Source: Haloplanus salinarum
GTDB lineage: Archaea > Halobacteriota > Halobacteria > Halobacteriales > Haloferacaceae
Direction: 5' to 3'
Assembly: GCF_024498175.1 (NCBI RefSeq)
Contig: NZ_CP101823.1
Coordinates: forward strand, 2,734,987 to 2,798,986
DNA: 64,000 bases
Shown: in pieces, positions 10,208 through 46,785 of the stretch
How positions within the stretch are numbered: position 1 is the first letter of the stretch
Layout of the letters: every line of letters starts with the position of its first letter
The notes under the pieces: generated by a model
Database searches by the model: none
What the model saw: the letters and a program-made list of their open reading frames with translations, nothing else
What the model was told of the DNA's origin: nothing
Program-made: the position numbers and the translations under genes

Positions 10208-10408
10208 ACGGGTACGTGACTGCGTTGGTCGGTTTCCCGAAAGAGATGGCTCCGTTCGGAAATACGGGATCCGAGTCCGACGGCTCTCGTATTCGAAACT
10301 TCGAAATAAACCCTCTCTGCGGCCAAATTCTGACGTTCTAGTACTGCCACGAGCACGATGGGAGTCCCGCGAGCGAACGCAGTGAGCGAGAGGGACTACA
10401 TCGTGGCC
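10101..10408. repeat. 308-bp direct repeat, copy 2
   Basis: Partner of 9261-9568 at a constant offset of 840 bases. It includes the 3' third of the intact toxin gene and the noncoding sequence behind it, including a variant tRNA 3'-end copy at 10351. Confidence 0.85.
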
Positions 10409-10431
10409 GCGAACGACCGAAGGGAGTGAGC

Positions 10432-10494
10432 GGGCACGATGGGATTTGAACCACGGTCGCGGCGGAGCCGCTCCCTGATTCAAATCCCACGAGG
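10432..10494 (-). repeat. tRNA-Arg(TCT) 3'-end scar with inverted T-arm
   Basis: GGGCACGATGGGATTTGAAC at 10432-10451 copies the 3' end of the adjacent tRNA. It is followed by ATTCAAATCCCACGAG near 10479-10494, which pairs with it to form a hairpin. The same design appears beside tRNA-Val, tRNA-Arg(GCG) and tRNA-Met. It fits an attachment-site remnant of a tyrosine recombinase. Confidence 0.6.
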
Positions 10495-10532
10495 AGTTCG
10501 GCGGGCCTCGCTGTCGCTCGGCCACGCCGTCA

Positions 10533-10632
10533 CGGGCACGATGGGATTTGAACCCACGACCGTCGGATGGCTTCCCCCGCGGGCCGTCGGGGTTAGAAGT
10601 CCGACGCTCTATCCGGACTGAGCTACGTGCCC
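10533..10632 (-). tRNA. tRNA-Arg(TCT) with a 25-nt intron
   Basis: Read leftward from 10632 it folds with acceptor GGGCACG/CGTGCCC, D-arm GCTC...GAGC, anticodon stem TCGGA/TCCGA and T-arm GTGGGTTCAAATCCCAT. The loop CTTCTA|A carries anticodon TCT at 10597-10595. Between positions 37 and 38 a 25-nt insert (10593-10569) separates the stem halves; without it the tRNA is 75 nt. The position is canonical for archaeal introns removed by the splicing endonuclease. Introns in haloarchaea are best known in tRNA-Trp and elongator tRNA-Met, so this one is less usual. No CCA is encoded. Confidence 0.9.
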
Positions 10633-11742: not shown

Positions 11743-12117
11743 ATGGAGTTCACCGTCTCGACCGACGCCCGCCTCGACGTGGTGGACGTGACCGACCGGG
11801 TGGCCGCGGCGATCCCCGACGACGCCGACGGCACCGTCACCGTCTTCGTCGAACACACCACCGCGGGCGTCGTCGTCAACGAGGCCGAACCGAACCTGCT
11901 CGACGACGTGGAGGCGTTCCTCTCGGATCTGGTGCCCGACGAGGGGTGGGCACACGACCGGCTGGACGACAACGCCGACGCACACCTGCGGGCGTTGGTG
12001 CTGGGCCCGGGGGAGACGGTTCCGGTGGTCGACGGCACCCCAGCGCTCGGCCGCTGGCAGTCCGTCCTGTTCGTCGAGTGCGACGGCCCCCGGGAGCGGA
12101 CGGTCCGGGTCGTCTAG
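11743..12117 (+). CDS. YjbQ/UPF0047 family protein
   Basis: The 124-residue product shows the family's signature: VTVFVEHTTAGVVVNEAEPN with the metal-binding His and Glu, ...DNADAHLRALVLGPGE, and GRWQSVLFVECDGPRERTV near the end. Family members include proteins with weak thiamine-phosphate synthase activity; the true role is unclear. ATG 11743 is preceded by a purine-rich stretch (GAGAGCGGATCC). It overlaps the end of the converging MgtE half gene by 4 bases. Confidence 0.88.
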   Translation: MEFTVSTDARLDVVDVTDRVAAAIPDDADGTVTVFVEHTTAGVVVNEAEPNLLDDVEAFLSDLVPDEGWAHDRLDDNADAHLRALVLGPGETVPVVDGTPALGRWQSVLFVECDGPRERTVRVV

Positions 12118-17592: not shown

Positions 17593-17598
17593 GTGGAT

Positions 17599-17668
17599 GG
17601 GCTCGGGCGGATTCGAACCACGGTCACTCCGCTCGCCGTCGCTCGCTTCGTTCCCTGATTCGAACCGC
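17599..17668 (-). repeat. tRNA-Val 3'-end scar with inverted T-arm
   Basis: GGGCTCGGGCGGATTCGAAC at 17599-17618 repeats the tRNA-Val 3' end, 113 bp away. The paired arm TTCGAACCGCCC near 17660 makes it a hairpin. Together with the stem-loop at 17552 it fills the 17431-17710 gap, where no gene is visible. Confidence 0.6.
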
Positions 17669-17710
17669 CCTCGGGACGACGACCCGCTCGCTGTCGCTCG
17701 CGGGTTGTAG

Positions 17711-17784
17711 TGGGCTCGGGCGGATTCGAACCACCGACTTCGGCCTTGTAAAGGCCGCGTCATAACCAGCTAGACCACGAGCCC
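17711..17784 (-). tRNA. tRNA-Val(TAC)
   Basis: Read leftward from 17784 it has acceptor GGGCTCG/CGAGCCC, D-arm GTC...GAC with AGCTGGTTA, anticodon stem CGGCC/GGCCG, loop TTTACAA with anticodon TAC, and T-arm GGTGGTTCGAATCCGCC. There is no intron and no encoded CCA. Confidence 0.95.
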
Positions 17785-24672: not shown

Positions 24673-24754
24673 TCGCGGCTCGGGACTCACGGCTCCGCGT
24701 TCGCCGAGATGTTCGTTCGCCTCTCGCTACGCTCGGCGGGGTTGTGTCGGCCGC

Positions 24755-24950
24755 GTCCTGACGGAGTCCCACGCGAACGGCGAGGGACCGGCGGTCCCTC
24801 GGGCAGCCGGTGCGTAGCGCCGGCGACGGAAGGAGTAACCTGACGAAGTCAGGTCACGACTGAAGTGAACGTCCTGACGGAGATTTGAACCCGCCGAGAC
24901 GGTCGACCTCGCTTCGCTCGGCCGCTGCGTCTCGTCTGCTCAAATCTTCC
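24755..24950 (-). repeat. tRNA-Arg(GCG) 3'-end scars
   Basis: GTCCTGACGGAG, the tRNA 3' end, recurs at 24755-24766 and, extended to GTCCTGACGGAGATTTGAAC, at 24871-24890. The latter pairs with CTCAAATCTTCCGG near 24938 as a hairpin. These scars fill the 24673-25008 gap, which holds no gene I can see. Confidence 0.6.
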
Positions 24951-25008
24951 GGTGAGTTTTCCGCGGCACGGACGACTCGCTACGCTCGTCGTATTGTGCC
25001 GCTGAAAA

Positions 25009-25081
25009 CGTCCTGACGGAGATTTGAACTCCGGTCCCTGGCTCCGCAAGCCAAGAGGATAGTCCACTACCCTATCAGGAC
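25009..25081 (-). tRNA. tRNA-Arg(GCG)
   Basis: Read leftward from 25081 it has acceptor GTCCTGA/TCAGGAC, a D-arm with GGGTAGTGGACTATCC, anticodon stem TTGGC/GCCAG around loop TTGCGGA (anticodon GCG), and T-arm CGGAGTTCAAATCTCCG. There is no intron. Confidence 0.93.
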
Positions 25082-34837: not shown

Positions 34838-34946
34838 GGGCCCTTAGCTTAGTCCGGTTAAAGCGCCCGGCTCATACTGGCCCGCGACGGCACCGTCGCG
34901 GTCATGGGATACCGGGTGATCGCTGGTTCGAATCCGGCAGGGCCCA
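34838..34946 (+). tRNA. Elongator tRNA-Met(CAT) with a 34-nt intron
   Basis: Acceptor GGGCCCT/AGGGCCC, D-arm with AGTCCGGTTAAAGC, anticodon stem CCCGG/CCGGG, loop CTCATA|A with anticodon CAT, and T-arm GCTGGTTCGAATCCGGC. The intron occupies 34877-34910, between positions 37 and 38, and contains its own hairpin (CCGCGACGG/CCGTCGCGG). Mature length is 75. Introns in this tRNA are standard in haloarchaea. Its 3' end is the attachment site for the island that follows. Confidence 0.95.
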
Positions 34947-34947
34947 T
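34934..34947 (+). other. Attachment-site core within tRNA-Met
   Basis: CCGGCAGGGCCCAT recurs exactly at 40923-40936 and 41036-41049, and with 13 of 14 bases at 46773-46786. The longer match GGTTCGAATCCGGCAGGGCC (34925-34944) is shared with 41027 and 46764. These are direct repeats bounding the integrated DNA. Confidence 0.85.
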
Positions 34948-35258
34948 CCGGAGAACTCTCAGTTCCGGGCCGATTAGAAAACAGGCAATTCGAGGCTTCT
35001 AAGTCCTGTTTTCGGTGTTTCAACCACCATCGAGTAACCCCCGCTGAGACGAATGTCTACTGTTCGCCTGTTGGGGGACCTCGCCGTCGGGCGAAACTCC
35101 AACTCGAAAATAGCGCACGATTCCGCTCCGTCGCGAAGTCGTTCTCGGTTCGCTGGTCGGTCTCGCTGCATAGTCCAGTCGCTTCTCTCCCGGTAGTAGG
35201 TCGACACATGTCGCCCACCCACCACCTCACCCTCCCGTATAGGTGGTGTGTGCGGAGC

Positions 35259-35379
35259 GAGCGGCTGAGCGACCCTCCTTGTGGGGGTCCGAAGCCGCTC
35301 GACCTCGACCGTCCACCGCAAGCGGCGGAGCGGCCCCCTCACATGGGGGCCCGGAGCCGCGCACGCCGCCGATCGGCGG
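35259..35379. repeat. Stem-loop array in front of the replication initiator
   Basis: Three inverted repeats follow each other: outer arms GAGCGGCT/AGCCGCTC (35259-35300) around GACCC/GGGTC; GCGGC/GCCGC (35322-35360) around a perfect 7-bp GGCCCCC/GGGGGCC; and the palindrome CCGCCGATCGGCGG (35366-35379). The first two share layout and loop position. This is a plausible double- or single-strand origin for the HUH protein. The rest of 34948-35498 holds no gene I can support. Confidence 0.6.
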
Positions 35380-35498
35380 AGAGGCGGCGAACGAGATGCG
35401 GTGCGGTTGCCGTAGACTCCTCGGTATCGCCCAGTGACTGACTCGACCGGCCCGGTATCGGATCGGTCGCACGCCCTTCGTGAGTTGCTACTATACCG

Positions 35499-37550
35499 AT
35501 GAGTACCGCTGGCTCCATCTCCGACGGATGTAACACATCCCCCCTTAGTAACTACCTCCTCGAAGAGTTGGAGTCAGAGGGCCTGCTCGGCCGTGGGCAA
35601 TTACTCGATGGGTCATACACTGACCGCGATCAAGATCGCGCACGTCTCCTTCAACTGGTCGCAGAACACCCAGAGGGTATTATACGCTCTCGTCTCGTCC
35701 ATGTCGGACTATACGGAATCCGGCTCTACGGTACTGATCCGTGGCGAAACACCGCCGGGTTCGCTGACCTCGACTACTATAATGCGCAAGAGCGCCACGA
35801 CACGGCACTCGACAAGATTTCAGAGAAAACCTCGACCGTGAATCAGCTTGACGGTAGCGACTCAGAGTACCAGTTTACGTACAGATTTACGAAAGCCGCT
35901 GAGGAGGCCGATTTCGTCCGTCTCGAATCCTCAGGCTCGACAACTACCGTCCACCCGACACTGCGGCTTCTTGACTTGATTTCATCAGGCATTAGTGAAA
36001 CAGAGAATCCCGACGACGGAACAATCTCCGATCGTAATTTCGTTCGTAGAATGCTTTCCTCCGTAGATTCGCACCTTTCAGACGCTCAGAAAGCAGCTTC
36101 CGCTGAGGGACTTCTTCGTTACATCCGGCGCATCGATGACTATCGGCTGGCTTTCGATGTCCACGTTCGCTCTCGGAAAGGCACTGAGACGCGCAGGATG
36201 ACCAAGGAGTACAAGACTCGGTTCAACTCCGAGGATCGTCACGGCCGCTCGTTTGCACGGTTACAGGATTCACTAGACGCACGCACCGAGCCCGGCGCTA
36301 CTGCGGCCTTCATGACGGCCACAACTGATCCTAACCTACACGACTCGCTGCTCGATTCGATACAGAATATTAATCCGAATTTCCACCGGCTTCAGCAGTA
36401 CCTCTCTTCGGACCCGTCGACGAAAGATGATACTCGGAAAGTTGGTGTTCCCGGCTGGCGTCCGGACTTGGATGGCGAAGTTACCGGTCGGCCGCGTGAA
36501 ACGCTCGACTACCTGAAAGTCCTCGAATTCGCCTCCGGTGGTCTTCCACATCTGCATACGCTCTATTTCAACCCTCCGCGGCGCGAATCTGATGGGATGC
36601 CGTGGCTGATCGACAAAGGGGAGTTGTCGCAGAAATGGTCCGATTACGGGCAGGGTTCCATTGTCGACGTTCGGCCGCTGGTGTTTCGAGACGACCTCCG
36701 CCCAGCTGGTGACCCGGACGATCCCGATGACGACGGTCTTTGCCACCTCGTTCCGTATGTCGAGTCCTCACTTGAACAGATAGGCGCGTCGACGTTCATA
36801 CAAGGGTGTACCGAGGAGACAATCCTCAACTGGTACCGCCGAGAGCACGATCTCGATGGCGTACGATTCAATTCATCTGAGGGATGGGTCGACTGGTACC
36901 GCTACGGTGATAACGACCTCTCCCGCGAAGAGGCCGCGAAACGGGCCGGAAAGCACGATCTCGTCGATATGGAAGGCGATAATGAGGTTATTTTTCAGAA
37001 AACTGCTGGCTCATATCTCGGAAAGTATCTGAGTGCTACCTATGGGGCGCTTTCAAACGTGACTGAGTCGTTCGAAGACCGAGAAACGCTAACATCTGGA
37101 GAAGACGACTCGAAAGAGGCTGTCTGGAAACTGGCACTCTATTGGGCGACAGATAAGCAATTCTGGTCCACCTCACGCGGTATTGAGCGAGCAATTGATC
37201 CGGAAGATCAGGGGCTAGAAGATGATATTCGCGAGGCTGCTGAGTGGGCGGCTCAGGATACGGTCCTTAACCTATCTCATGCATACGCTGAAACGTGGGT
37301 TCATGAGCCCAATCTCGACGAACTCATCGAATCTGGTCGGGCACAGGCTACACTCCGCGAATTGGCTACCGACTACTGGATCTCGATTGATTACTGTGGT
37401 GCTTTCCCATACTGGGATATGCCTGTACAAACGTCACAAGCGGTGTCTCTGGAAATTCTCGAAGAGAATGTAAACGATCCAGATAGTCCCTCTATCGCCG
37501 AGGATGCTGATCGACCACCACCATTAGCACAGGTCTGGGGAGAAGCTTAG
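35499..37550 (+). CDS. HUH-endonuclease replication initiator (rolling-circle Rep)
   Basis: The 683-residue protein shows the three rolling-circle motifs in order: motif 1 FMTATTDP at residues 271-278, motif 2 GGLPHLHTLYF with the metal-binding His351 and His353, and motif 3 AGSYLGKYLSATY with candidate nucleophile Tyr506 (Tyr510 also possible) and Lys509. The N-terminal 250 residues include a possible winged-helix stretch (LLQLVAEHPEGIIRSRLVHVG). It would nick the element's origin and start rolling-circle replication, as in haloarchaeal small plasmids and pleolipoviruses. A stem-loop array lies 120 bp upstream. Base composition is lower in GC than the chromosome. Confidence 0.85.
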   Translation: MSTAGSISDGCNTSPLSNYLLEELESEGLLGRGQLLDGSYTDRDQDRARLLQLVAEHPEGIIRSRLVHVGLYGIRLYGTDPWRNTAGFADLDYYNAQERHDTALDKISEKTSTVNQLDGSDSEYQFTYRFTKAAEEADFVRLESSGSTTTVHPTLRLLDLISSGISETENPDDGTISDRNFVRRMLSSVDSHLSDAQKAASAEGLLRYIRRIDDYRLAFDVHVRSRKGTETRRMTKEYKTRFNSEDRHGRSFARLQDSLDARTEPGATAAFMTATTDPNLHDSLLDSIQNINPNFHRLQQYLSSDPSTKDDTRKVGVPGWRPDLDGEVTGRPRETLDYLKVLEFASGGLPHLHTLYFNPPRRESDGMPWLIDKGELSQKWSDYGQGSIVDVRPLVFRDDLRPAGDPDDPDDDGLCHLVPYVESSLEQIGASTFIQGCTEETILNWYRREHDLDGVRFNSSEGWVDWYRYGDNDLSREEAAKRAGKHDLVDMEGDNEVIFQKTAGSYLGKYLSATYGALSNVTESFEDRETLTSGEDDSKEAVWKLALYWATDKQFWSTSRGIERAIDPEDQGLEDDIREAAEWAAQDTVLNLSHAYAETWVHEPNLDELIESGRAQATLRELATDYWISIDYCGAFPYWDMPVQTSQAVSLEILEENVNDPDSPSIAEDADRPPPLAQVWGEA

Positions 37551-37835
37551 TGCTGCTTCAACTGTTGACTTGCAAGTCTCTCAATTGCTGTAGTGGTATA
37601 GGTGTGCAAGACTCAGAGGATTGAGCTCAGCACGCTGATCGTATTTATTTCGTGATGTTAGTGCTGAACTATCCGTATACCGAGTCGGCAGACTGAACGC
37701 TCAAAAATTAGGTCAGGCGTCCACAAAATATTAGATACTTAATAAATAAAGGGTCGGACTCGTCGCTAATTTACTCTTCACCGACGGAAAGAAGCTGTAA
37801 TATACTTGGATATTAGACGCAATAGTGAACATTAC

Positions 37836-38813
37836 ATGATTAGTTTCACTGAATGGCTCTCTGAGAGCGTCTCCACACTCCGGAATGGAGACCGATCACT
37901 ACCGGCACGGCTTCTACGGCCGGCTTATTATATTTATGTCGGTGGATTACTCACCCTCAACCAATACGTCACGTACGGGACGAATATTTACGATCGGGAG
38001 TGGGACGTGCTTCTCATCCTTGATGCCTGTCGAGTCGATGCATTACGCGAGGTTGCAGAAGAATATGATTTTATTACGGAAGTTGAATCGATGCGTTCCG
38101 TCGGAAGTACCTCTTTTGAGTGGTTAAGCCACACATTCACTACTGAATATCGAGATGAAATCAGCCGAACTGCCTATGTGACCGGAAATGCCTACTCTGA
38201 GCGAGTGTTCGGACAGGGTGGTGAAACTGGATCGGCCGCAATACCCTTTGGTCCAGCGGAGTACGACGTAGTCGCTCCCGACGAATTCGGTTATTTAGAG
38301 GAGGTATGGCGTGCCGACATATCCGATGAATGGATTGTTGGCGAGGGTGAACAGACTGGGCGGCATCCCCGATATATCACAGATCGAGCGATTTCCGTTA
38401 AACGTTCTATCGACCCGGAGCAATTGATGGTTCATTATATGTATCCACACGATCCGTTCCCATTAGCTGGAGAGGATCTCTATCGACCATTCGAGGCGCT
38501 TAAGTCCGGAACCGCCTCGCGGGAAGAAGTGTGGAATGCTTATCTTGATACGCTCCGCTTGGTTCTCGATAGCGTGGAACTGCTGTTAGAAAATATAGAT
38601 GCCGACCGTGTAGCAATCACTGCGGACCATGGCGAGGCGTTCGGTGAGTATGGCTTCTATCGACATGTTATCGGCTGTCCGATACCCTGTATGCGTCAAG
38701 TACCATGGGTCGAGACAGTAGCGACCGATGAGGCAACTTACGAGCCGACGGCACCTGCTCCTGAAAGCGATCTCGGCGTTGAAGAGCAATTAGAACACTT
38801 GGGCTATCTGTAG
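37836..38813 (+). CDS. Sulfatase-like hydrolase (alkaline phosphatase superfamily)
   Basis: The 325-residue product has a membrane-proximal N-terminal part, then WDVLLILDACRVDALREV (first metal Asp), a Ser-rich turn VGSTSFEWLSHTF (candidate nucleophile Thr/Ser), VHYMYPHDPFPLAG and ITADHGEAFGEYGFYRH (metal Asp/His). It belongs to the superfamily of the gene at 33205 but to a shorter branch. Cargo on the mobile element; it may alter host surface glycans. An AT-rich promoter-like stretch (TGTAATATACTTGG) precedes it; 37551-37835 has no gene. Confidence 0.75.
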   Translation: MISFTEWLSESVSTLRNGDRSLPARLLRPAYYIYVGGLLTLNQYVTYGTNIYDREWDVLLILDACRVDALREVAEEYDFITEVESMRSVGSTSFEWLSHTFTTEYRDEISRTAYVTGNAYSERVFGQGGETGSAAIPFGPAEYDVVAPDEFGYLEEVWRADISDEWIVGEGEQTGRHPRYITDRAISVKRSIDPEQLMVHYMYPHDPFPLAGEDLYRPFEALKSGTASREEVWNAYLDTLRLVLDSVELLLENIDADRVAITADHGEAFGEYGFYRHVIGCPIPCMRQVPWVETVATDEATYEPTAPAPESDLGVEEQLEHLGYL

Positions 38814-38955
38814 CGGGTGATTCAAATTGGAGGCTTTCGCGCTAAGTATGCGCTGTGTATCTTGCAGGGTTTCAAAAATATGAACTATATTTGGCAAGTT
38901 GATAGCGGGGTAGTGTACCTGCAAGTTCGGGGGTGAATCTACACTGAGTCTGTTT

Positions 38956-39306
38956 TTAGGGTGGTAGACCTTGTAGAATATAGCCCGCACCCAGCTTGGA
39001 TATTTTATATTTTCCTCGACTTTCTTTTTCAACTAATCCACCGGCGTTTAATGCATTCAGACGACGCGAAACCCCTGCACGGGACCGATCAATATTGTCC
39101 GCGATCACCGCCGGCGTGAGAGTGAGATTCGACCGCATCAAGACTAACAAAATGTCTCGATCGGTCTCTGTGATCCACTCGTAATCTTCTCGATCCTCCC
39201 TGAGCCACATCTCTTCTGCTTCAGAAAAATCAGGAACCCCATCTATGACTATCTCAGTAAATCTTTCAGGAATCTCGGGGTCGTCCTCTTCTTCGCTGTC
39301 GGCCAT
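38956..39306 (-). CDS. Winged-helix transcriptional regulator
   Basis: The 116-residue product has an acidic N-terminus (MADSEEEDDPEIPERF) and a winged-helix domain: ITETDRDILLVLMRSNLTLT, PAVIADNIDRSRAGVSRRLN, ALNAGGLVEKESRGKYKISK, ending LGAGYILQGLPP. This is the MarR/ArsR-like form common on haloarchaeal plasmids and viruses. It faces the sulfatase-like gene and diverges from the zinc-ribbon/integrase pair, so it may control their expression. ATG 39306 is preferred over the upstream in-frame start at 39360. Confidence 0.8.
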   Translation of the reverse strand: MADSEEEDDPEIPERFTEIVIDGVPDFSEAEEMWLREDREDYEWITETDRDILLVLMRSNLTLTPAVIADNIDRSRAGVSRRLNALNAGGLVEKESRGKYKISKLGAGYILQGLPP

Positions 39307-39506
39307 ATGACTTCGATCACCGCCTACACAAAAAGATGTTTCCCGTTGATTGACCTCCAAGTGCTGATCATTAATTAGTGATAAACACTAAGTGACCTCG
39401 GATTAAACTCGGTGCCTGAGAGCTACCTAGTCGGTCTGTGGTGATTCCGTAGGTCTGTGAGAAAGGCCGTGCTGGTACCACGGCCACGGTAGTTCTCGTG
39501 ACCAGT

Positions 39507-39818
39507 ATGCACGGAACCACCGCGGGGCTTTCCAGCCCCAAACAATCGGACGTATCGATCAGTGAAAACTCCGACGGGAATTGTTCCTACTGCGGAGATC
39601 ATGCAGATGGGATTGACGCACTCCGGCGGACAGCCGTCTGTCAACGTTGCGCCCGAATACTGTCTGAGTGGGGTCGCTGCAAGAACTGCAAGAAAACAAT
39701 CACTCCACAATCCCCCAATAGACTCCCGTTCTATGACCGACTTGTCCACGGTTACTTCGCCCACTTTCTGTCTGCCCATGTGGATCGCTCAGAATGGGGC
39801 CCTCAGGAGGAGCAATGA
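39507..39818 (+). CDS. Small zinc-ribbon protein coupled to the integrase
   Basis: The 103-residue product has two treble-clef-like knuckles, CSYCGDHADGIDALRRTAVC with QRCARI, and then CKNCKK, six to seven Cys in all. Its TGA overlaps the integrase ATG (ATGA), and the integrase Shine-Dalgarno AGGAGG lies within its 3' end. In SNJ2, small proteins co-transcribed with the integrase are needed for integration; this gene is a candidate equivalent. ATG 39507 is used; a GTG at 39498 is possible. Confidence 0.75.
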   Translation: MHGTTAGLSSPKQSDVSISENSDGNCSYCGDHADGIDALRRTAVCQRCARILSEWGRCKNCKKTITPQSPNRLPFYDRLVHGYFAHFLSAHVDRSEWGPQEEQ

Positions 39819-40852
39819 CCGACGACCTCCAGCCGCTCTCGCCACCCGAGGGCATCGAGATGTACCTCGAAGCTCGTCGCGACGAGTTGAGTGATGGAAC
39901 TCTGAGCGGTCAGAAGTACCGTCTTGATTCTTTCCTCCAATGGTGCAAGGAGGAAGAGCTAGAGAATCTGAACGAGCTTGACGGTCGCGATCTCTACCGG
40001 TTCCGTGTCTGGCGTCGAGAAGGCAACGGTGACGGTCGTGAGCCGATTACACAGGTGACCCTTCGAGGTCAGCTCTCGACGCTCCGTGCATTCCTCCGCT
40101 TCGCTGAGGAGGTCGACGCAGTTCGCGAAGGTCTTCGCGCGGACGTGCCGCTCCCGACAGTGAGTAGCGGCCAGAACGTGAGTGATACCACTCTTAGCCC
40201 CGATCGAGCGGGAGATATTCTGGAGTATCTGAATCGCTACCACTACGCAAGCCGTACACACGGGATTCTGCTCCTGATGTGGCACACCGGCGCGCGGGTT
40301 GGTGCGATTCGCTCGCTGGATCTTGCTGATGTCGATCTCAGTAACGATCGACCGGGTATTCAGTTCCGGCACCGTCCGGAGACTGACACGCCGCTGAAAA
40401 ACAAGGAGAAGGGGGAACGCTGGAACGCGATCAGTCCAAACGTGGCTCGGGTTCTTCAGGACTACATCGACGGACCACGCGAAGAGATGCGCGACGAACA
40501 CGGCCGTTCTCCGTTGTTTACCACCGAATACGGTCGTCCATCTCTGACCACGTTCCGAGATGCGGTGTATCGAGTCACCCGTCCCTGCTGGCGCGGGGCC
40601 GAGTGTCCGCACGATAGAGACCTGGACAACTGCGAGGCGACTGATCTGGTTCACGCGAGTAAGTGCCCCTCGTCTCGATCTCCGCACGACGTTCGGAGCG
40701 GTCGGGTGACTGCATACCGTCGCGAGGACGTTCCCCGACGAGTTGTCTCTGACCGGCTGAACGCGAGTAGCGATATCCTCGACGAACACTACGACCGTCG
40801 GAGTGCTCGTGAAAAGGCAGAGCAACGGCGCGATTACCTCAGAGACCTATGA
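39815..40852 (+). CDS. int: Tyrosine integrase, SNJ2-type
   Basis: The 345-residue recombinase has a SAM-like core-binding N-terminal domain (MYLEARRDELSDGTLSGQKY, residues 17-36) and a catalytic domain with Arg161 (HTGARVGAIRSLDL), Lys195/197 (TPLKNKEKGERW), His291 and Arg294 (SPHDVRSG) and nucleophile Tyr326 (ILDEHYDRRS). A Cys cluster (Cys258, 264, 273, 284) just before His291 looks like a zinc insertion and is typical of haloarchaeal integrases of this group. It lies 70 bp from the right attachment copy. The Shine-Dalgarno AGGAGG at 39806 supports ATG 39815. Confidence 0.93.
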   Translation: MTDDLQPLSPPEGIEMYLEARRDELSDGTLSGQKYRLDSFLQWCKEEELENLNELDGRDLYRFRVWRREGNGDGREPITQVTLRGQLSTLRAFLRFAEEVDAVREGLRADVPLPTVSSGQNVSDTTLSPDRAGDILEYLNRYHYASRTHGILLLMWHTGARVGAIRSLDLADVDLSNDRPGIQFRHRPETDTPLKNKEKGERWNAISPNVARVLQDYIDGPREEMRDEHGRSPLFTTEYGRPSLTTFRDAVYRVTRPCWRGAECPHDRDLDNCEATDLVHASKCPSSRSPHDVRSGRVTAYRREDVPRRVVSDRLNASSDILDEHYDRRSAREKAEQRRDYLRDL

Positions 40853-40922
40853 CGGATCAGGTTTCAACCCACCAGGGGAGCAGTAGAGAAGCGAGGGGTA
40901 GCGAAAGCGCAGTACGTCGCTC

Positions 40923-41049
40923 CCGGCAGGGCCCATGAGAACCGCCGAGCGACGGCGAGGCGTGTTCGAATACCCCCGCGGATTCGAAGCAGGGAGTGGA
41001 GCGGGCGACGCGAGCGGAACGACCGAGGTTCGAATCCGGCAGGGCCCAT
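40923..41049 (+). repeat. 113-bp unit bounded by two attachment cores
   Basis: CCGGCAGGGCCCAT at 40923-40936 and 41036-41049 encloses an inverted T-arm (CGGATTCGAAG... and ...GGTTCGAATCCGG). The unit has the same plan as the scars beside tRNA-Val and both tRNA-Arg genes. It may be the remnant of a second integration or a composite right end. Confidence 0.7.
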
Positions 41050-41526
41050 CCAGAGTTTACACGATTCTGAGCTAACGGATTCAACCGTGTGACTGCCTGA
41101 AACCCATATTTCCACTTTTGCCGAGCCGAACATAAATTTCTGGCAGTCTGGAGTTCAATCATACTGTGAATGCGGGTCGCCGCTGTCGTGCCTTCGTTGA
41201 TCACTGAGAGCGATACCCCCGTAATCATTCGCTCGTTGTGGGGGGCAACACGCGTTTGGAGCGCCGTTTCCCCTGTTATCCCTCTCTCGCTGTGGGGGCT
41301 CCACAGCTGCGAACTGCTAGTAGGTCACCACGGCGACGCATCAGATGTACACTGACTATCTGCCACGAATGGCGTGACCGATACAGAGGATGTAGTCAGC
41401 ACGGGGACTGCGTTATTTTCTCAAAATGAATCCTGAACCAACCGATAGAACTTGCCTGCGTAGTTATCGACCGTCTCGGATTGCCACCGAGAAATATCAG
41501 AAATACATCAAAACGGGTACCCTCCC

Positions 41527-41817
41527 CTACGCTAATAGTAATTCAGGGACCGATGCAAGGACACCGAGGAAGACAACGAAGGTACCGACGGCTAGCATTC
41601 GAAGTGTTCCTGCTGAACGTCGTCGGTCCGGTGGCAGCGACTCGGCGACTCCGGAGAATCCAAGCCCGATAGCAAAAAAGACGAAAAAGTCAGAAGCGTT
41701 GAGCACGACAGCAGTGTACACCCAAATAAGGAGGCAGATGAACGATAAGAACAACATGATGAGCCCCTTCCTTCGTCCATCTGGCTCACGGAACACCATC
41801 TGTGGAAGTGACTCCAT
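41527..41817 (-). CDS. Small membrane protein
   Basis: The 96-residue product has a short entry (MESLPQMVFREPDGRRKG) and three hydrophobic segments: LIMLFLSFICLLIWVYTAVV, FFVFFAIGLGFSGVAESLPP and MLAVGTFVVFLGVLASVPEL. It has the look of a haloarchaeal hypothetical family. The frame could extend to a TTG at 41922, but ATG 41817 is the natural start. Mobile-island cargo; function unknown. An opposite-strand frame here is Ser/Thr/Lys-rich and rejected. Confidence 0.68.
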   Translation of the reverse strand: MESLPQMVFREPDGRRKGLIMLFLSFICLLIWVYTAVVLNASDFFVFFAIGLGFSGVAESLPPDRRRSAGTLRMLAVGTFVVFLGVLASVPELLLA

Positions 41818-42159
41818 ATGTACCAGCAATAGTTCGGCCCTGTAAAGCGTGCGGATAACTGAAAACCGGCCTGTACTTTCTCTTTCATCTGCATCTTCCA
41901 CCGATCTATTTGCCAGCTCCAAATAGACACCACTGTTTCACTGTGCTCGGTAAGAGCTCCAATAATATGATACAAAATGAACGTACATGCTGAACGATTC
42001 GCGCAGGCGTCTTTACCGATACGAGCGCTGTATTCAGCAGCGTCCACAAGATCTCCTCAGTTTCTGTTAGTAGTGAGTTGCGAGATACAGAGAGTGAATT
42101 CAGCAATCAGATATGGTCTATGCCGAGCGAATTTTTCTATAGAACCACACATTCATAAT

Positions 42160-42510
42160 ATGGATTCCCGTGCTGGCGAAGCATCTTTGCTGACGCACCG
42201 TCTATGTCAGTCTATCACCAGAAAGAAACTCGAATCAGAGGTTAGACAACTTTATGAGCACCTTGCAGCGACCCGAGAGCGCCCCATCGAACGGGAAGCG
42301 AGCCGGTGGATCGGCGAAGCGGAGGCCATCACTGATGATCTGGTCGGCCCTGAGATCGCAGATCTCGATTCAAGTGTGATTCAAAATAGGATTGGACATG
42401 TCGCAGAACTACTCTCGAACATCGAAGGGACTGGCGATTCAACCGCCAACGAACACGTTGAAGCAGCCCGCGACCTCGCCACCACGATTCTGGAACCCAA
42501 CACGGAGTAA
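42160..42510 (+). CDS. Small helical protein
   Basis: The 116-residue product is soluble, acidic and helical: SITRKKLESEVRQLYEHLAA, REASRWIGEAEAITDDLVGP, VIQNRIGHVAELLSNIEGTG. I recognise a haloarchaeal flavour but no function. It sits between two copies of a TATTCAGCAG-containing sequence (42019-42040 and 42557-42579), suggesting it moved as a cassette. A TATA-like TTTTTCTATAG lies 25-30 bases upstream. Confidence 0.65.
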   Translation: MDSRAGEASLLTHRLCQSITRKKLESEVRQLYEHLAATRERPIEREASRWIGEAEAITDDLVGPEIADLDSSVIQNRIGHVAELLSNIEGTGDSTANEHVEAARDLATTILEPNTE

Positions 42511-42794
42511 TCAGAGTTTTGTAAAAACCATCGCTGATCCGTATGTACCTCTACAAGATACGCGCTCTGTATTCAGCAGGACTGCTGAAACCTATCACCA
42601 AGCGATGGTTTCAACAAGGCCGATCTGTTGGCGCACCCGCCAGGGAATCATAGTAATGTGAAACCAAGTCGAACATTTATAGATTTGCCAAGGGGCTGAC
42701 GAGAGGGGCTACCATCGTCGCTCCTTCTGTGGGTCTCCCTACGAGTAGTCCTAGTTGAGTCGTGTTGGTAGTGAAGAGCGCGATTCGGACCGGG

Positions 42795-43628
42795 TTACAC
42801 CGTGCGGTGTGTCTCTACTGTTTCTGGGGCGTATCCAGCCTTCTGCAGGTTCGTGAGGACTTGGTTGATGGTTTCGAGGGTGTCATACAGGTTTTCTGTG
42901 GTGCGGCCGCTGCTGAGAAACCCGTTGCTGTCAGTGTTCTCGACGAGGAGGTTGGTGTGGGCGACGTCGTTGCGTAGGTCAGTGACATCGTGAAGTCGGG
43001 AGTCTGCACCGCCTTTCGTCGAGAAGCCGCACGCTTGCCAGCAGGCTTCGACGCTGGTGACGATGGTTTCGAGCGTGGAGAATTGTGCGTAGTGGAGTTC
43101 GGCTAACGCGACGTTGGCGGCTTGTGCGTCTTCGTACCGGTCTTCGATGTCGTCAAGTTCGTCTGCGGTGACCGGCGTGGTTTTCCAGTCCGGTTTCTTG
43201 TCGAGGATGAGTTCGCGGAGGTGTTCTTCGAGGTAGGTGATGCGGTCGAAGAGGTAGATGCGCGCTGGGGCGGTGTTGAGATCGGCGCGGGTGAGGATAC
43301 CGGTGACGTGGTTGTGGCCGCCGAGAAAGTAGACTGGGTTCTCAATGAGTGCGGACAGGATGTCGGTGAACGAGGTGTCTCCGCTGATCATGTAGCCGAT
43401 GGTCAGTGGGGTGAGGTGGTCGTCGAGGGTATCGCCGTCGTCGTCGGTTGTGACGTCGTCTTTGTGGATGAATCCGATTGGGTCGTCGTTCGCGTAGACC
43501 GGGGCGGCGTCGTAGCCGTTCTCAGCGAGCCACTCGGCAGCGGTACTTGGTGGCGTATCATGTTGAAGATGCTCGACAGAGCGAGTGGCGAGTTCGGCTG
43601 CGGTGCAGTCGTAGAGATCGCGGGGCAT
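42795..43628 (-). CDS. CBS-domain protein with HEPN-like C-terminus
   Basis: The 277-residue product begins with a CBS pair (about residues 8-120: ATRSVEHLQHDTPPSTAAEW, DAAPVYANDDPIGFIHKDDV, HNHVTGILTRADL), modules that bind adenine nucleotides. The C-terminal half is helical and contains DLRNDVAHTNLL, where Arg219 and His224 fit the Rx4H motif of HEPN ribonucleases. This suggests a nucleotide-gated RNA-cutting or defence protein, an inference from motif and island location. ATG 43628 is chosen over 43703. It is divergent from the gene at 43740. Confidence 0.7.
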   Translation of the reverse strand: MPRDLYDCTAAELATRSVEHLQHDTPPSTAAEWLAENGYDAAPVYANDDPIGFIHKDDVTTDDDGDTLDDHLTPLTIGYMISGDTSFTDILSALIENPVYFLGGHNHVTGILTRADLNTAPARIYLFDRITYLEEHLRELILDKKPDWKTTPVTADELDDIEDRYEDAQAANVALAELHYAQFSTLETIVTSVEACWQACGFSTKGGADSRLHDVTDLRNDVAHTNLLVENTDSNGFLSSGRTTENLYDTLETINQVLTNLQKAGYAPETVETHRTV

Positions 43629-43709
43629 ATCGCTCGGTGGGGAGCCGAGGGTAGTCAAAATGAGGGTGAAGAAGTGAAGGGGAGAAGTGCCGATCCACCA
43701 CAAAATTAA

Positions 43710-43722
43710 TGTCTATAGGACA
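43710..43722. promoter_or_regulatory. Operator-like inverted repeat in a divergent promoter
   Basis: TGTCTATAGGACA is an inverted repeat (TGTC/GACA) in the 111-bp gap between two divergent starts, next to the AT-rich run TATATTTCTATTTAATTA. The position suits an operator for one or both genes. Confidence 0.4.
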
Positions 43723-43739
43723 TATATTTCTATTTAATT

Positions 43740-44096
43740 ATGCTTGAAGGGCATTTTGAATCGGCGGGGGCGAGTATCGAATACGGTGCTACTGGCTGCC
43801 TCTTCCCCGTCGATGAACTGGATGCGACAGTCCTCCAGTACCGAGATGCCCAGATCGCGCTCGACGATGTCAATGGATCAGATGTCATCGTCGTCGCCCC
43901 GACGAGTCTTGCAACCAGTTACTTCCTCACCCAGCACGCACTCACCGCAATCCCGGTCGACAGTCTCTCCACTGCGGTTCAGACCCAGCTCGCTAACGAA
44001 CTTGACGACCCCGTAGATACGTTCGAGCTCATCCAGATCGGCAAGTGGAACCGAGACAGTCCAAACCACTCGCTCACTGAATTCACGAGCGTCTGA
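43740..44096 (+). CDS. Orphan protein divergent from the CBS-HEPN gene
   Basis: The 118-residue product reads like a small alpha-beta domain (GCLFPVDELDATVLQYRDAQ, GSDVIVVAPTSLATSYFLTQ) with no leader or membrane helix. I do not recognise it. The divergent arrangement with a putative HEPN protein raises the possibility of a paired control or antitoxin role, without direct sequence support. Confidence 0.55.
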   Translation: MLEGHFESAGASIEYGATGCLFPVDELDATVLQYRDAQIALDDVNGSDVIVVAPTSLATSYFLTQHALTAIPVDSLSTAVQTQLANELDDPVDTFELIQIGKWNRDSPNHSLTEFTSV

Positions 44097-44147
44097 ACCC
44101 GGTCTGCAGACGCACAGAACCCAGAAATCCCCACCAAACGACTTCGA

Positions 44148-44417
44148 ATGACTGAGACACTCGCCGATGAGTATCCGGAAGCCGCCCCGTACATCCAGCA
44201 AGCTGTCGACGAACACGGCGAAGACTGGGTGCTGGAGAATTACTACCAGCAACTCTACCCGCTTGGGAGACTCATGAAGATGCCCGAAAAGGACGAACTC
44301 CCGTTCTACGACGCGGACAAGCACGACACGATGACGGAGAAGGAACGGATCGAAATGTATCAAGCGTGGGCCGAGTATCGAGAAAACCTCCGTACCGGAA
44401 CGAAACCTAACGAGTGA
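44148..44417 (+). CDS. Small acidic orphan protein
   Basis: The 89-residue product contains ADEYPEAAPYIQQAVDEHGE, DWVLENYYQQLYPLGRLMKM and EKERIEMYQAWAEYRENLRT. It is Tyr-rich, acidic and predicted helical. It follows the previous orphan by about 50 bp on the same strand and may be co-transcribed. No family is recognised. Confidence 0.55.
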   Translation: MTETLADEYPEAAPYIQQAVDEHGEDWVLENYYQQLYPLGRLMKMPEKDELPFYDADKHDTMTEKERIEMYQAWAEYRENLRTGTKPNE

Positions 44418-44460
44418 CTCCCACCCTACATTTTTCTCAGCGGTAGTTCTTGAGTGACGT

Positions 44461-44634
44461 ATGGATTTGGATCGGGCGTGTGGTGCCCTCCTTGGGCTAG
44501 CGTGTGGGGATGCGCTTGGCCGGCCAGTCGAGTTTACGTCTGCGTCGGAGATCAGTGCTAAGCACGGCCGGCTTGACGAGATGGTCGGGCACGGCACGTG
44601 GAACCAGCCAGCCAGGGTGAAAGTAGAATGCTAA
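44461..44634 (+). pseudogene. ADP-ribosylglycohydrolase (DraG family), N-terminal fragment
   Basis: The 57-codon frame starts MDLDRACGALLGLACGDALG, then RPVEFTSASEIS, the hallmark start of DraG-type hydrolases that remove ADP-ribose from proteins. The frame turns to unrelated residues after GHGTWNQPA and stops at TAA. The di-metal Asp motifs and the other 200 or more residues are missing. The break point suggests recombination between islands. Confidence 0.75.
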
Positions 44635-44671
44635 TCTGCAGTAGTGCGTGGCCGGTTTCGGCCTGTTGAGG

Positions 44672-44935
44672 ATGAATCTGATAACGAACGAAACAGAGTC
44701 TCGGACAGTTGAGTGGGCGACACCCACGCCAGGTGGTGGTGAGTATCTGGATACCTTGGTATTGAGCCGTGACCAAGCACGTGAGTATGGTGACGAGCTT
44801 ATGATGTCCTTACAGGTGGATGGAGGGATGCTGCAAGAGCGGGGGATAGATCCCGCTGAGCCGTTTGCGTGGAAGATTGAAGACGGGGAGTTGCTGATAA
44901 GCAAATCTCACGTCAATCGTTCGAAACCGTTGTAG
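44672..44935 (+). CDS. Orphan protein
   Basis: The product of about 87 residues contains TVEWATPTPGGGEYLDTLVL, REYGDELMMSLQVDGGMLQE and WKIEDGELLISKSHVNRSK. It could start at ATG 44648 or 44672; the latter is chosen. Strand-rich and acidic, unrecognised. It directly follows the DraG fragment and may be unrelated cargo. Confidence 0.5.
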   Translation: MNLITNETESRTVEWATPTPGGGEYLDTLVLSRDQAREYGDELMMSLQVDGGMLQERGIDPAEPFAWKIEDGELLISKSHVNRSKPL

Positions 44936-45121
44936 AGAGCGACCGAGGCGATGCCAAGTACGCCAATCAAGTACTAGACTACCGAGCGAGACGAAGGGTA
45001 GGCGACCCACGGTGGTGGTCGGTCGCGTCGATCGGAATCGAGACACTGGTCGTTCTCACGGTCGCTAGCGGTCATAGTGAGTCGTTTCTGCTGTCACCGA
45101 TTATATTCAGAGAACAATTCT

Positions 45122-46763: not shown

Positions 46764-46785
46764 GGTTCGAATCCGGCAGGGCCCA
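46764..46785 (+). other. Distal copy of the tRNA-Met 3' end (attachment site)
   Basis: GGTTCGAATCCGGCAGGGCC followed by CA matches the tRNA-Met T-arm and acceptor exactly over 22 bases, nearly 12 kb from the tRNA. It marks the right end of the second island. The flanking 46593-46880 region holds no gene. Confidence 0.8.

Follow-up and report, generated by a model that had tools for sequence, protein, structure and literature searches.

The attC sites of integrons are single-stranded and carry a GTTRRRY core. SNJ2-type elements (betapleolipoviruses) use tRNA 3′ ends and duplicate a core of the tRNA tail. Passages of PMC8371274 describe the site used by SNJ2 as very short and report that XerA binds stem-loops. 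In haloarchaeal genomes, partial tRNA remnants located by full tRNAs are tied to prophages in passages of PMC3119063, which give tail duplications of 22 and 43 bp, and excerpts of PMC9897764 let partial tRNAs arise from element integration. Where these published accounts touch on such fragments, the relevant passages treat them, at most, as remnants of integrated elements and mention neither hairpins nor loop families, arrays or turnover. Passages of PMC3119063 also deal with PATEs, SMRs and MITEs of haloarchaea, which are small, non-coding and palindromic. PATEs and SMRs make no target duplication according to these passages, MITEs are transposon-derived with terminal inverted repeats, and none of the three is stated there to be tRNA-specific.

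The units described here are, judging from those passages, likely the same phenomenon as the partial tRNA remnants. They share small size, palindromic sequence and lack of genes with PATEs, SMRs and MITEs, but carry a tail duplication and thus do not qualify as PATE/IS200-605 derivatives, and no common terminal inverted repeat is apparent among them by eye. The units resemble attC sites in that their hairpins are imperfect and fold better on one strand, the paired stem and some unpaired positions being conserved and the terminal structure being variable. As in integrons, tandem arrays of different cassettes share a core (13 of the 51 unit-bearing loci of three genomes hold more than one unit, and several of these arrays are mixed). 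However, the units are gene-free, their core is the tRNA tail (GTTCRAA) and not the attC consensus, and no integron integrase was identified. SNJ2-type elements, one of which is present at a tRNA-Met gene studied here, differ by a 14-nt core, a hairpin-free attP and a gene-bearing body of kilobase size, and they insert between tRNA and unit. A literature search outside subscription papers found no title describing such units, and the gain, loss, exchange and reordering of the modules among related species suggest that they are small mobile or recombining DNA of a kind not described before.

Units Beside tRNA Genes in the Window

The window, i.e., the whole stretch of DNA that was analyzed, comprises 64 kb (positions 2734987-2798986) of the 3.45-Mb chromosome of the haloarchaeon Haloplanus salinarum, referred to as the own genome. 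Its relatives carry labels (G002, G005, G006 etc.), with G006 being the sister species. Along the tRNA strand, a unit is composed of the tRNA tail (DR1), a hairpin (H1), an inverted T-arm (IR), a loop and a second tail copy (DR2). The following features were identified:

10533..10632, minus strand: tRNA-Arg(TCT) with intron (Rfam RF00005, 60.7 bits; not called by ARAGORN); its tail is DR1; the anticodon TCT is taken from the sequence-only reading
10431..10532, minus strand: Arg(TCT) unit with H1, IR, type A loop (motif 10446-10480) and DR2 (10431-10452); period 102 bp
10350..10430, minus strand: second module of Arg(TCT), of another class, with inverted acceptor core, hairpin and an imperfect tail copy of ~14 nt at 10350
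17710..17784, minus strand: tRNA-Val(TAC) (ARAGORN and Rfam)
17598..17709, minus strand: Val unit with H1 (~17676-17709), IR (~17658-17675), type A loop (motif 17613-17660) and DR2 (17598-17621); period 113 bp
25009..25081, minus strand: tRNA-Arg(GCG) (ARAGORN and Rfam)
24868..25008, minus strand: Arg(GCG) unit with loop family D and DR2 (24868-24890); period 139 bp; the sister species lacks it at the orthologous position
24754..24867, minus strand: second module of Arg(GCG), named Z, ending in a 13-nt tail core (24754-24766); its ortholog in the sister species lies directly after the tRNA
34838..34946, plus strand: tRNA-Met (CAT) with intron (Rfam)
34947..40922, plus strand: SNJ2-type integrated element between tRNA-Met and Met unit, absent from the sister species
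39794..40852, plus strand: SNJ2-type tyrosine integrase, 68.8% identity to the SNJ2 integrase over 100%
40923..41048, plus strand: displaced Met unit with 13-nt core (40923-40935), H1, IR, type A-like loop and DR2 (41027-41048)
46764..46785, plus strand: another full-length copy (the third) of the tRNA-Met tail, following a decayed stretch that resembles H1

At Arg(TCT), Val(TAC) and Arg(GCG) the last 22-24 bases of the tRNA region are present as exact second copies, and in the Met unit the first tail copy is reduced to a core of ~13 nt. The four extra copies of a tRNA's own tail named in the sequence-only reading all exist, but the Met unit, which had been placed beside its tRNA, lies 6 kb away from it. 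The inverted T-arm said to be paired with each copy was found between the copies at the two Arg genes and Val, the Met unit shows the same layout, and the period of 113 bp claimed for both Val and Met could be confirmed. That each unit is tailored to its tRNA holds for the exact tail copies and only in part for the IR: compared beyond the shared T-loop, the IR ranked its own tRNA within the top 5% in 13 of 40 units (2 expected) and within the top 20% in 23 (8 expected). A control with foreign T-arms yielded 435 matches in 1360 comparisons and is uninformative, because the T-loop is common to tRNAs.

With Rfam 15 at gathering scores, tRNA alone was matched in the window and no other RNA family. 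ARAGORN additionally called a tRNA-Val(GAC) at 11818-11911 without Rfam support, which is probably false. The kinase gene adjoining tRNA-Arg(TCT) has its closest named match in Haloplanus ruber (90%).

Frequency of Tail Copies

In the own genome, 17 of 44 tRNA genes are followed, at a distance of 91-182 bp, by a further copy of their own 3′ end (last 19 nt, at most two mismatches, 600 nt searched). No match was obtained in 1594 cross-tRNA pairs, in which the tail of one tRNA was searched in the downstream 300 nt of another, or in the 44 upstream stretches. Two distant haloarchaea, from each of which 30 of 43 tRNA loci were taken (one contig-edge locus was dropped from the second), showed tail copies at 13/30 and 15/29 loci, with 0/750 and 0/674 matches in the cross controls. 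About 40-50% of the tRNA genes examined in these three genomes bear modules.

Furthermore, exact 18-mers repeated at a distance of 80-220 bp were searched in ~410 kb of own sequence picked around tRNAs. This resulted in 29 rows, 21 of them flagged as tRNA tails, one more located inside a tRNA array and seven elsewhere; six of these seven are 120-123-bp periodic repeats at one place, which are probably coding. The own-tail counts against their controls and this survey rule out chance or coding repeats as the source of the units.

Loop Families, Arrays and Folding

At most three mismatches being allowed, 68 units were found at the 51 loci of the three genomes, and an IR within 2/10 mismatches is present in 46 of them. 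The units are mostly 91-182 bp long and consist almost completely of hairpin sequence without genes (read by eye), with H1 often beginning with a T-run (by eye). Type A, which is the most frequent loop of the own genome, has the form TCAGGGA - stem-loop - GACCGTGG. Further loop families, named by eye, are CCCTG...CTCCGG, xxAGA...GCGTGG, CACGCGA...CGCAATCGG and CCCAG...CGTGG. The mixed arrays comprise the order D-A-D with identical D modules at Gly-TCC and X-Y-X at His and Val-CAC. Two units at tRNA-Lys genes of the own genome (2326505-2326578 and 3267887-3268000) have near-identical H1 and IR and belong to different loop families.

Pairing and covariation, the latter tested for type A alone, were analyzed in a set of 33 type A hairpins, all different and equally long. 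In this set 97.0% of the cells are paired compared to 80.1 ± 1.6% after shuffling, and the covariation score is 0.473 compared to 0.169; neither value was reached in any of 500 shuffles. All five variable pairs show two-sided changes. Among 108 different type A sequences, 94 have Watson-Crick pairs at both positions adjoining GGGA/GACC, compared to 27 on average and 41 at most when the partners were shuffled 1000 times. Of the stem positions that follow, two are for the most part purine-purine when read on the tRNA strand, and at the third purine-purine and Watson-Crick are about equally frequent.

Of 44 loops and 44 H1, 39 and 36, respectively, fold more stably on the tRNA strand than on the complementary one when RNA parameters are used, and 36 and 29 when DNA parameters are used. 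The fold z-scores are modest (means of -1.16 and -1.73, RNA sense), and the sense-strand stability test fails to separate RNA from single-stranded DNA. As an indicator of the strand, G-T and A-C mismatches were counted (9 vs. 3, in short stems), and a census of hairpin loop types for RNA vs. DNA gave a scattered picture.

Turnover Between Related Species

The units turn over between related species. Between the own genome and G006, 40 tRNAs were matched, with four own tRNAs lacking a counterpart and two own Ala copies mapping to one locus. A unit is present in both species at three of them, in the own genome only at 14, in G006 only at one and in neither at 22. The single G006-only case is Met, where the own unit is displaced. 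At Arg-GCG, Phe and Leu-GAG the bases past DR2 of the own genome align with those past the tRNA of G006, so that filled and empty sites are directly comparable; they differ by one tail copy. An empty site can also come from a deletion between DR1 and DR2.

The tRNA-Val locus is syntenic in all 12 members of the genus, and its units comprise at least four loop families, with the same H1 and IR bearing different loops in four species. No unit is found there in G006, and in G005 and G008 only H1 is left, which looks like loss. At Arg-GCG the modules occur in the orders X-Z, Z-X and Z-X-Z or as Z alone, X is missing in 4 of 12 species (by eye), and all four sister pairs of the tree differ. When DR2 was compared with the tRNA variant of its host, it was closer to the host's own variant in nine cases, tied in three and closer to the variant of another species in three. 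At the tRNA-Val locus of G002, ~10 kb of inserted genes directly follow a truncated unit, and no second full tail copy was found there.

Relation to Integrated Elements and Integrases

The circle junction (attP) of SNJ2 has a core of ~14 nt, and no inverted T-arm hairpin was seen in it. In the own genome the SNJ2-type element lies between tRNA-Met and the unit. In G006, tRNA-Met is followed by a unit whose loop and H1 differ from those of the own genome and by the same downstream flank, without an element. That the unit is the end of an SNJ2-type element is ruled out by this junction and by the element-free unit of the sister species. Wherever both tRNA and unit were found (Met and the traced loci), a large element sits between them. 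Four tail copies form an array 19 kb away from tRNA-Gly(TCC), past a long (~41-nt) tail duplication.

In addition, 60 genomes of the family were searched for integrases, and at seven of 30 loci taken from this search a unit hairpin was found within 1.5 kb. Five of the seven were followed in 40 kb of context each, and the unit lies beyond the stretch which divides it from its tRNA. The hairpins beside these five integrase genes had been considered as element ends; each turned out to be a unit beyond the element. No recombinase could be tied to the units in the 30 loci sampled. In a hand count over 42 genomes, 37 have an SNJ2-type integrase, and 24 of these contain type A; of the five without the integrase, one contains it. 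Among 2.9 million viral contigs the pattern is present in one stretch, next to tRNA-Glu. Based on the location of elements between tRNA and unit, the SNJ2 junction and this scarcity in viruses, the units behave as chromosomal features that are displaced by elements and not as parts of them.

The earlier proposal of solo attachment-site scars is not supported for the integrase family seen here, whose attP is free of the hairpin and whose element lies between tRNA and unit. Its alternative, a class of miniature units, is in better agreement with presence and absence, exchanged loops, mixed arrays and changed order at orthologous tRNAs, so that this interpretation as a whole is partly supported. 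Beside the SNJ2-type element of the window, ~3.8 kb of low-GC DNA (41252-45081) missing in the sister species represents a second insertion, and no tRNA-tail copy bounds its left side.

Distribution Across Haloarchaea

The type A motif was detected in 182 of 292 genomes of the class and in 60 of 77 genera, and the reversed pattern gave no match in the same survey. All 12 genomes analyzed from the genus have it, as do 28 of 53 members of the order, and none of 241 genomes of the same phylum outside the order. Loop families are found again at many different tRNAs throughout the class. In G014, which has no type A, 13 of 30 tRNAs still carry units of other loop families. Thirty type A loci of the class survey were read, and a same-strand tRNA is located just upstream in 29 of them. 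Within the genus, the tRNA directly precedes the unit at 26 of 30 loci. Three of the remaining four sit 6-16 kb past their tRNA with an inserted stretch between, and the array of the fourth comes after a long 3′ half of a tRNA, the tRNA not being reached within 19.5 kb.

Units fixed at the same tRNAs everywhere, without empty sites, had been named in the sequence-only reading as speaking against mobility. At tRNA-Arg(TCT) of named haloarchaea a unit was found at 25 and none at 26 of 51 scorable loci (80 loci in total, 28 of which had no such tRNA found and one a short flank), which disagrees with such fixation.

Proposed Mechanism and Alternative Explanations

Recombination at the tail copies on folded DNA, similar to attC, would best explain the units, because tails bound them, they replace one another, their order and combination change, and a structured loop has been retained throughout the class. 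The cassette, consisting of H1, IR, loop and tail copy, starts right after one tail copy and ends in another. It may be excised, inserted or exchanged by site-specific recombination at these copies, whereby the tRNA would always be restored, as with tRNA-targeting integrases. The hairpin formed by IR and DR2 would serve as the folded single-stranded attachment site, and the recombinase would act in trans, being supplied by resident elements or by the host. Larger elements would insert at the same tail and push the cassettes outward. With a confidence slightly short of even, the units are regarded as discrete non-coding cassettes resident at haloarchaeal tRNA 3′ ends, which recombine at tRNA-tail copies and in which the folded tRNA-sense strand is the selected feature. 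More speculative, and on balance doubtful, is the wider idea of a gene-free integron-like haloarchaeal system, in which folded, mutually exchangeable hairpin cassettes stand in arrays, take the tail of nearly every tRNA as core, are recombined via the folded sense strand and are kept class-wide as selfish or host-used mobile non-coding DNA. If the units are recombining cassettes, they would form a new class of non-coding mobile DNA and a natural test bed, outside bacteria, for folded-site recombination, and they would confound every method that delimits integrated elements by duplicated tRNA ends.

The units could also belong to a structured host RNA, read through from the tRNA as 3′ trailer or terminator, inherited vertically and often lost, with loops passing from one tRNA locus to another through gene conversion over the short homology of the common T-arm. 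Their position on the same strand directly after the tRNA, the purine-purine mismatches on the sense strand of the type A stem and the T-run at the beginning of many H1 agree with this, and the higher stability of the sense strand, more pronounced with RNA parameters, is no less compatible with an RNA role than with a cassette. Such RNAs would represent an unrecognized layer in haloarchaeal tRNA maturation. However, units are missing from about half or more of the tRNAs per genome, 14 tRNAs of the sister species lack the unit of their own-genome counterpart, order changes and mixed arrays occur, the window holds no Rfam family besides tRNA at gathering scores, and the retention of a full tail copy is unexplained by a trailer role, so that this explanation is considered rather unlikely.

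Lower still is the probability assigned to short tandem repeats that arise without a dedicated enzyme, by replication slippage or by double fold-back template switching at palindromes by tRNA tails. The DR-IR-DR layout, the palindromic H1 and loops, a 47-bp tandem array in G009 and periodic arrays of near-identical units are in line with such a process, which does not account for the restriction to tRNA tails instead of any gene end, for a type A loop with paired 5′ and 3′ motifs recurring in 60 genera, or for arrays of differing families and reordered modules. Least probable of all appear scars of larger tRNA-integrated elements, in which an internal deletion left the two ends, H1 and IR-loop-tail. 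Although elements do integrate at these tails, the tail copies, at 20-26 nt, have a length that tRNA integrases also produce and partial tRNAs are usually taken as element ends in passages of PMC3119063 and PMC7921747, the SNJ2 attP has no hairpin, elements lie between tRNA and unit in the traced cases, viral contigs gave a single match, and random internal deletion would not yield uniform compact units in three genomes.

A Second Module Class and Further Observations

A second class of modules, with a tail core of 13-14 nt, was found at Arg-GCG, Arg-TCT and Gly-CCC. By an exact 12-mer it was detected at 2 of 44 own tRNAs, with no match among 1812 cross controls. Its tail core is similar in length to that of the SNJ2 integrase, and this class could be tied to that enzyme family.

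At the tRNA-Val locus of G009 (L130), the 47-bp array consists of four tandem copies of the type A loop with single T-arm palindromes between them, as if the loop alone had been multiplied. Finally, the same 50-nt type A loop is located at tRNA-Arg(CCT) across families and genera (L133, L142, L150, L156, and L157), and the flanking IR differs in some of these loci.
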